Shown: positions 10,706 through 44,270 of the stretch, piece after piece
Position numbering within the stretch: position 1 is the stretch's first letter
How the letters are laid out: the number at the start of each line of letters is the position of its first letter
Source of the DNA: Candidatus Gastranaerophilales bacterium
Lineage (GTDB): Bacteria; Cyanobacteriota; Vampirovibrionia; Gastranaerophilales; Gastranaerophilaceae
Assembly: GCA_944324185.1 (NCBI GenBank)
Contig: CALUVI010000013.1
Span: 1 to 44,270 of the forward strand
Direction: 5' to 3'
Length of the DNA: 44,270 bases
Position numbers and translations under genes: made by a program
The notes under the pieces: generated by a model
What the model saw: the letters and a program-made list of their open reading frames with translations, nothing else
What the model was told of the DNA's origin: nothing
Databases searched by the model: none

Positions 10706-10781
10706 TGGTGGGCGTTAGAAGACTCGAACTTCTGACCCTCTCCTTGTAAGGGAGACGCTCTACCAACTGAGCTAAACGCCC
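10706..10781 (-). tRNA. tRNA-Val (anticodon TAC)
   Basis: The minus strand folds as a complete cloverleaf of 76 bases: acceptor GGGCGTT with AACGCCC, D arm GCTC/GAGC, anticodon loop CTTACAA with TAC (plus-strand 10748-10746), T loop TTCGAGT, discriminator A and an encoded CCA (10708-10706). It is the only tRNA in the window with an encoded CCA. Partial copies of its 5' half lie just upstream. Confidence 0.96.
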
Positions 10782-10804
10782 GCACTTATATTCTTTTGTC
10801 ATCT

Positions 10805-10914
10805 GTTCAGTTGGTAGAGCGTCCATATTTTAGAAACACTCGGCTCAACCTGCTGAACCTGTCGATTAGGCTTCCAACCCTGCTGCCTCGTTGGGCAACT
10901 GAGCTAAACGCCCG
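10805..10914 (-). pseudogene. Partial tRNA-Val copies upstream of the intact tRNA
   Basis: Two fragments of the neighbouring tRNA are present. 10896-10914 repeats its first 18-19 bases in the same orientation (GGGCGTTTAGCTCAGTTG). 10805-10823 repeats the D-arm region in the opposite orientation (CAGTTGGTAGAGCGTC on the plus strand). Neither can form a tRNA. The bases between have no gene. Confidence 0.8.
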
Positions 10915-11049
10915 TATGCCTCGCGACAAAATTTATATTAATTCAAACAAAATTTAATGTCAAACACTTTGTTATAATAATCTGATTAGCGTATTTTAAA
11001 CAGGATTCAAATTAGATACAATACTAGAATAAGAAAGGAGTTTTGAACT

Positions 11050-34815: not shown

Positions 34816-34884
34816 GTCCCATACTCTTGAAATTAAAAAATGTTTATGAGAAGATTAACTGGTGACAATTGAATAGGTTCTAAT

Positions 34885-34964
34885 TTATGGCAAGGTAGCT
34901 CCCCGAGTGAGTGGAACGAACGTAATATAGAAAACGTGAGAGCAGCGCTCAAAGCAACTGAGCC
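34885..34964 (+). pseudogene. Partial tRNA-Met copies upstream of the intact tRNA
   Basis: 34885-34901 repeats the tRNA 5' flank and first 13 bases (TTATGGCAAGGTAGCTC), exactly 100 bases before the intact copy at 34985-35001. 34945-34964 is an inverted, slightly changed D-arm fragment (GCGCTC...CAACTGAGCC). The layout is the same as upstream of tRNA-Val. Confidence 0.75.
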
Positions 34965-34988
34965 GGTAACAATTAAATAAACGATTAT

Positions 34989-35062
34989 GGCAAGGTAGCT
35001 CAGTTGGTGAGAGCGCACGGCTCATACCCGTGAGGTCGAGAGTTCGAATCTCTCCCTTGCTA
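34989..35062 (+). tRNA. tRNA with CAT anticodon (elongator Met, or Ile2)
   Basis: A 74-base cloverleaf: acceptor GGCAAGG with CCTTGCT (a G-T closing pair), D arm GCTC/GAGC, anticodon arm CACGG-CTCATAC-CCGTG, T arm GAGAG-TTCGAAT-CTCTC, discriminator A, no CCA. It lacks the GGG/CCC anticodon stem and mismatched 1-72 pair of the initiator. Elongator Met and lysidine-modified Ile cannot be told apart with certainty. Confidence 0.92.
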
Positions 35063-35152
35063 TTTTTTATTGACTGCTAACGGGTAATTCGCCGTACGCA
35101 GATTTTCTAAATCCCATTCGCGCCGGACTCAGGGTTTCGTCCGGCTCTCTTG

Positions 35153-35252
35153 GAGCGCACGGCTCCCTCTCGCAAAACGATAATCAATCGTTTTGCTTCG
35201 GCACAGTCCATGAGGTCGAGAGTTCGAATCTCTCCCTTGCTATTTTTTATTG
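35153..35252 (+). pseudogene. tRNA-Met copy split in the anticodon loop by a hairpin cassette
   Basis: GAGCGCACGGCTC (35153-35165) is the anticodon 5' half and 35211-35252 repeats, without a change, the 42 bases of the 3' half and flank (35031-35072). Between them 35166-35208 holds a 43-base cassette with a perfect 10-bp hairpin (GCAAAACGAT 35172-35181 with 35187-35196). The 5' acceptor and D arm are missing, so it is not functional. Confidence 0.8.
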
Positions 35253-44166: not shown

Positions 44167-44194
44167 CTAATAACCAATCCCGCTATAAAAAATA

Positions 44195-44268
44195 TCGGGA
44201 TGACAAGATTCGAACTTGCGACCCCCGCGACCCGAACACGGTGCGCTACCAAACTGCGCTACATCCCG
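44195..44268 (-). tRNA. tRNA-Pro (anticodon CGG)
   Basis: A complete 74-base cloverleaf on the minus strand: acceptor CGGGATG with CATCCCG, anticodon arm CCGTG-TTCGGGT-CGCGG, T loop TTCGAAT, discriminator A, no CCA. Just 3', ATCCCG (acceptor end) can pair with CGGGAT at about 44177-44182, with a T-run in between. Confidence 0.95.
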
Positions 44269-44270
44269 AT

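Follow-up and report, generated by a model that had tools for sequence, protein, structure and literature searches.

Hairpin repeats beside tRNA genes of a gut bacterial family appear to mirror a repeat known in E. coli

The window, which is the whole stretch of 44,270 nucleotides that was analysed, is contig 13 of a 1.97-Mb draft genome of a Gastranaerophilales bacterium. Relatives of its pepA carry the annotation Candidatus Gastranaerophilales / Melainabacteria. It holds a tRNA-Val gene and a tRNA-Met gene, each preceded by a partial copy of itself. The tRNA-Val locus contains the following features:

10706-10781, reverse strand: intact tRNA-Val(TAC) (ARAGORN; Rfam tRNA, 74.3 bits)
10782-10806, reverse strand: 25-base leader from the unit to tRNA-Val, carrying AACAGATGACAAAAGAATAT
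10807-10823, forward strand: inverted D-arm, an exact 17-nt reverse complement of tRNA-Val nt 12-28 in the direction of transcription
10824-10895, reverse strand: core X (72 bases) of the tRNA-Val type A 5' unit, with the conserved CCCAACGAGGC at 10885-10895 and GGTTGAGCCGAG at 10839-10850
10896-10913, reverse strand: exact copy of tRNA-Val nt 1-18
10935-10963, reverse strand: promoter-like TTGACA (10958-10963) and TAATAT (10935-10940) with a 17-base spacer, upstream of the unit (read from sequence)

Along the transcript, TTGACA-17-TAATAT is followed by a short leader, the nt 1-18 copy, the core, the inverted nt 12-28, the 25-base leader and the tRNA. The promoter-like sequence is conserved in relatives and lies upstream of the unit, which would therefore be part of the tRNA transcript. 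AACAGATGACAAAAGAATAT of the leader is retained in sister species that lack the Val unit. The initial annotation had described a 5' fragment of 18-19 bases, about 70 bases, and an inverted D-arm followed by a short leader. These features were recovered as an exact 18-nt copy, a 72-base core and a 17-nt exact inverted arm ahead of the leader. It had also placed the same fragment order upstream of tRNA-Met, where the copy measures 14 nt and the inverted piece has 9 exact nt. The features of this second locus are listed below, the leader duplicate, the inverted anticodon arm and the dividing hairpin being called by reading the letters:

34861-34887, forward strand: tRNA-Met leader, partial duplicate (GGTGACAATTGAATA...)
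34888-34901, forward strand: exact copy of tRNA-Met nt 1-14
34902-34954, forward strand: core X of the tRNA-Met 5' unit, with its flank 99% identical in sister species G035
34955-34963, reverse strand: inverted tRNA-Met D-arm, nt 11-19 (9 nt exact, with longer imperfect complementarity)
34988-35063, forward strand: intact tRNA-Met(CAT) (ARAGORN)
35080-35101, reverse strand: degenerate inverted tRNA-Met anticodon arm, start of a 3' unit
35153-35165, forward strand: exact copy of tRNA-Met nt 24-36 within the 3' unit
35166-35210, forward strand: hairpin core dividing the Met copy at the anticodon loop
35211-35243, forward strand: exact copy of tRNA-Met nt 44-76 (33 nt)

Two of these features were absent from the initial annotation. 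Part of the Met leader is also duplicated (GGTRACAATTRAATA), and a second unit lies downstream of the gene (35080-35243). In this 3' unit a hairpin separates nt 24-36 from nt 44-76, so that the tRNA copy is interrupted in its anticodon loop.

Further reading of the same genome revealed the upstream layout at no fewer than eight tRNAs among the first loci read, each with its own 5' end: Val, Met, Phe, Gly-TCC, Lys-CTT, Ala-GGC, Asp, and Pro-TGG. The clade survey then covered 162 distinct tRNA loci of this Gastranaerophilales clade, a sample that is partly biased because some loci were fetched by motif. Cognate 5' copies were counted from at least 11 nt, inverted D-arms from at least 10 nt and 3' copies from at least 12 nt, and as a control each flank was assigned to another tRNA (about 145 loci). 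A cognate 5' copy was found upstream in 43/162 loci and downstream in 0/162, compared with 0-2 of about 145 for swapped flanks. The cognate inverted D-arm was found upstream in 22/162 loci and downstream in none (swapped flanks, 1-7). In this gut bacterial family, roughly one in four of the surveyed tRNA genes adjoins such a hairpin repeat. When loci from four other genera of the family were fetched only as tRNAs, an upstream copy was present in 9/37 and in three of the four genera; overall, the 5' form is present in four of the five genera sampled. It was found at 0/51 tRNAs in seven genomes from other families of the order or class. The copies range in length from 11 to 20 nt, which speaks against a fixed-length target duplication of the kind made by casposons or Cas1-type integration. 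The view that the layout is not random decay therefore holds, as one plan recurs beside many unrelated tRNAs.

The plan of a 5' unit begins with the native leader and a partial tRNA copy (the 5' strand of the acceptor stem and the D-arm) that is split in the D-loop by a hairpin, X. This is often followed by an inverted D-arm, and then by the native leader and the intact tRNA. The cores fall into types. In type A 5' units the predicted pairs are invariant, so covariation is uninformative and lends the structure no support. The type D core motif is present in 16/144 genomes, and in the loci read its matches lie upstream of tRNA-Arg (CCT/CCG/ACG), Gly or Asp. Complete type D units start with nt 1-16 to 1-19 of the cognate tRNA and have no clear inverted D-arm. 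Comparison of the core X beside Asp in the genome of the window with that beside Arg-ACG in another genus gave 98% identity, against 50% for the leaders; the core is therefore common, and the tRNA pieces and leader are local. At some tRNA-Arg loci (L113, L114, and L121) the end of the type D unit, TTGACG-18-TAAAAT/TACAAT, looks like the sole tRNA promoter, so the unit may have been adopted as such.

A mirror-image form was found at the other end of tRNA genes. Cognate 3' copies lie downstream in 31/162 loci and upstream in 2. In these 3' units the tRNA and its terminator are followed by an inverted T-arm with GAGAAC, a small hairpin, a sense T-arm half, a core termed X2, and nt 58 to the end of the tRNA. 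X2 is a conserved hairpin with double compensatory changes in 8/15 predicted pairs across 20 aligned sequences; for example, GAGC[N]GAG pairs with GTT[N]AA as T:A, A:T, and G:C. The X2 cores beside Met and Gln in genome G005 are 94% identical. Matches to the cognate inverted T-arm averaged 6.4 in the 3' units and 3.4 in swapped flanks, with 4.2 as the highest of 200 swapped means. From these arrangements, the 5' unit would represent the 5' part of a copied tRNA split in the D-loop, and the 3' unit the 3' part split in the T-loop, although the 3' split can also fall at the anticodon loop. Where an inverted arm is present, it would adjoin the real tRNA in both forms. X2-type cores were also seen in places other than the 3' ends of tRNAs, arranged in tandem or following rpmG (L188; L250, 1397-2048), and the association with tRNAs is therefore not absolute. 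In another locus (L252, 5212-5505, reverse strand) a reading frame close to a tRNA-Gln 3' unit resembles a RAYT-type Y1 transposase.

Some 3' ends of this kind accompany genes. Cassettes of parDE and hipBA end in a 3' core and a tRNA-Ser or tRNA-Ile 3' copy (L251, 2449-3787; L254, 5907-7284). The cassettes are stacked either behind tRNA-Ser (parDE) or ahead of a fragment of tRNA-Ile, and the tRNA copy closest to the tRNA is the freshest. This stacking of toxin-antitoxin cassettes may recall cassette systems, without proving one.

Comparison among relatives showed that units come and go. The interval between pepA and tRNA-Val contains empty sites, single units, stacked units or replaced units, and the empty sites (L041 and L044) consist of the promoter, a few bases and the tRNA. 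The nearest sister species found, G035, has flanks that are mostly 97-99% identical. It keeps the Met unit (99%), has a different leader in place of the Val unit, and carries a 132-bp Gly-TCC unit doubled in tandem. In sister strains (L303 and L086), the Val leader that replaces the unit of the window holds scrambled pieces of the anticodon and T-arm region of tRNA-Val. The initial annotation had made its reading depend on the layout recurring in the 5' flanks of other tRNAs of the clade or persisting in sister strains. It recurs at many other tRNAs, and in G035 it persists at Met but not at Val.

Taken together, the Val and Met features are best explained as units of structured repeats of small size (about 50-170 bp) that have spread among tRNA genes in this Gastranaerophilales family, a reading to which a probability of roughly 0.55 is given. 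In the proposed mechanism, an event of the replication or repair type would place a copy of X in a loop of a tRNA arm and would also duplicate the local end of the tRNA outward, so that the tRNA stays intact beside a split copy of itself. The direct repeats would then allow units to be multiplied in tandem or lost. A unit situated between promoter and tRNA would be cut off by RNase P together with the leader. With no sign of host benefit, neutral or selfish spread is taken as the default. A target-site duplication with the mature 5' end (the RNase P site) as its boundary had also been considered, and was dropped because leaders, and promoters at Arg loci, are duplicated in many cases as well.

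Candidate agents of movement were sought in the genomes. No mobilising enzyme was identified, and the counts of tyrosine recombinases and Y1 transposases do not track copy number. The tyrosine recombinases (PF00589) comprise two high-scoring Xer-like genes per genome and others that likewise do not follow copy number; on this independence a tyrosine integrase was rejected as the mobiliser. Mobilisation of the RAYT/REP kind was rejected because G005, the genome with the most 3' cores (24 pattern matches), has 0 Y1_Tnp. Searches by exact pattern or blastn found no unit in viral contigs (no exact matches) or plasmids (no blastn match of the type D core), and carriage by phage or plasmid was rejected on this basis.

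The initial annotation had offered either template switching or element insertion as the mechanism. Of these, an element agrees better with the findings than template switching alone, since the cores between the fragments belong to shared sequence families. If no element were involved, a polymerase stalling at tRNA arms could switch template locally and copy them in sense, antisense and sense again. This would account for the sense-antisense-sense order beside an intact tRNA, and the duplicated leaders or promoters and tandem duplications fit copying errors. However, the cores X are common to different loci and genera, and the same GATGAGAA change in the inverted T-arm occurs in the RtT repeat of E. 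coli and in several of the units described here, which local copying would not produce. As a complete account, local template switching is considered unlikely.

It could also be proposed that the tRNA fragments are insertion scars of tyrosine integrases, left at element ends as att sites. Integrase crossovers often fall in the D-, T- and anticodon loops of tRNAs, and the split points lie in these same loops. Moreover, the toxin-antitoxin cassettes terminate in the same 3' end and a tRNA copy, and the newest copies adjoin the tRNA. Several findings are difficult to reconcile with such scars. One core is found with different cognate copies, and the copy is therefore not carried as a fixed attP core. 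In addition, the units are only 50-170 bp long and have no integrase, inverted arms would not be expected, and integrase counts do not track copy number. Scars of this kind are judged quite improbable.

At the RNA level, the unit might instead be a cis-acting regulatory RNA of the tRNA leader. By pairing with either the core or the true D-arm, its inverted D-arm would then govern how the tRNA folds or is processed. The Val unit does sit between the promoter-like site and the tRNA, and folding of the Val and Met precursors predicted both alternative pairings of the inverted arm. By equilibrium folding, which ignores co-transcriptional order, the mean native-pair probability of tRNA-Val was 0.63 for the mature tRNA, 0.20 for the whole precursor and 0.44 for the shuffled precursor; the corresponding values for tRNA-Met were 0.56, 0.17, and 0.39. 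Further evidence comes from the Leu-GAG unit, whose closing helix departs from the tRNA sequence in both of its strands (GGAATC to GGACTC and GATTCC to GAGTCC). Against this, the same tRNA has no unit or an unrelated leader before it in close relatives, type D units show no clear inverted D-arm, and some units apparently lie upstream of the tRNA promoter (L113 compared with L114). Because relatives exist without the unit, an essential role is unlikely, and regulation as the explanation of the units is thought very doubtful. The suggestion that the fragments pair in the precursor is thus favoured by the folding predictions, but the decoy or processing role attached to it is disfavoured by the closely related species without the unit; the decoy idea as such would be compatible with the predicted folds. 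Lastly, chance or the ordinary decay of tRNA duplicates has a negligible probability, for although conserved D- and T-arm words are frequent among tRNAs, the upstream/downstream asymmetry and the swapped-flank controls of the clade survey refute it.

Few sites are used more often than tRNA genes when mobile DNA docks in bacterial genomes. If the reading of the units as small repeat elements is correct, a class of tiny elements able to rebuild the end of the target gene, at its 5' or its 3' flank, would account for orphan repeats, E. coli rttR among them. The passage of pieces of about 100 bp from one tRNA gene to another could then be studied as it occurs in nature. In genome annotation and assembly, repeats flanking tRNAs also call for caution. 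In this genome, no fewer than seven contig ends lie in or at a tRNA (44194-44269 in the window, and C12, C22, C50, C61, C63, and C64), as if the flanking repeats had broken the assembly.

Several known systems share features with these units. In tyrosine-integrase islands (att sites; PYG1), a partial tRNA copy likewise lies beside an intact one. These islands measure kilobases, with about 9-23 kb of integrated DNA in archaeal cases (PMC9897764), whereas the units described here are of 50-170 bp, have inverted arms and contain no gene. No integrase gene was found between the full and partial tRNA at Val or Met, where the tRNA copies are 100-132 bp apart. Furthermore, an integrase attachment site has a fixed core matching one tRNA, whereas here the same X accompanies different cognate copies. 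REP/BIME elements (RAYT, Y1) are also short imperfect hairpins, dispersed and stacked, but the present units differ in being tied to tRNAs with cognate copies. The stacked toxin-antitoxin cassettes are similar to integron cassette arrays (attC) in that the freshest copy lies beside the anchor (tRNA-Ser in G009); unlike in integrons, the anchor is a tRNA, and no attC consensus pair was seen by eye.

The closest resemblance is to RtT (RF00391, rttR), known from the 178-bp repeats of tyrT. RtT and the 3' units have a common order: an inverted T-arm, GATGAGAA, a sense T-arm half, a GCGA-rich hairpin core, and finally 18-19 nt from the 3' end of the cognate tRNA. At the tyrV locus of E. coli K-12 (L371), three 178-bp repeats contain GGGGAAGGAT, GATGAGAA, AAGGTTCGA, a GCGA-rich hairpin, GCGCTGAGTA, and the last 19 nt of tRNA-Tyr. 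In the Rfam consensus structure of RtT, the inverted arm closes on the tRNA 3' copy, as would be the case in the 3' units. This pairing of an inverted arm with an end copy around a hairpin core is reflected in the excess of inverted T-arm matches on the 3' side and in the mirror arrangement on the 5' side. Like RtT, the 3' units of the genus lie downstream with a copy of the 3' end. The Val unit is the mirror form, upstream with a 5' copy and a D-arm, and the units described here adjoin many different tRNAs. The units match no Rfam family, and the RtT covariance model gave no match at E<=1 in 14 genomes of the genus, including that of the window, with a positive E. coli control; membership of RtT is therefore not claimed, and it is the anatomy that is common.

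In E. coli, 18-19 nt cognate 3' copies with hairpin cores, like those of the 3' units, were found at lysT/W/Y/Z/Q/V and argV/Z/Q. RtT-like units with cognate 3' copies were seen in K-12 between or after the tRNAs of the lysT-lysQ, lysV, and argV-argQ operons (L448, L450, and L451), beyond the annotated rttR. Among the operons sampled, 3' copies are present at 10/45 tRNAs (tyrV, six lys, and three arg), a count that leaves out two of 12 rows as masking or neighbour artefacts, and 0/45 have a 5' unit upstream. The 3' units are of a known kind, with RtT-like anatomy; the 5' mirror form is apparently undescribed in the open-access literature, where no description was found of 5' tRNA repeats or of a family-wide spread. 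It is tentatively suggested that RtT and the units described here stand at opposite ends of a single broad class of mobile structured elements. Such elements would insert into the single-stranded loops of tRNA arms (the D-loop on the 5' side, the T- or anticodon loop on the 3' side) and copy the target arm in both orientations while the tRNA still works, some with toxin-antitoxin cargo. Judged by their anatomy, the 5' units appear to mirror a repeat that is known from E. coli on the 3' side alone.
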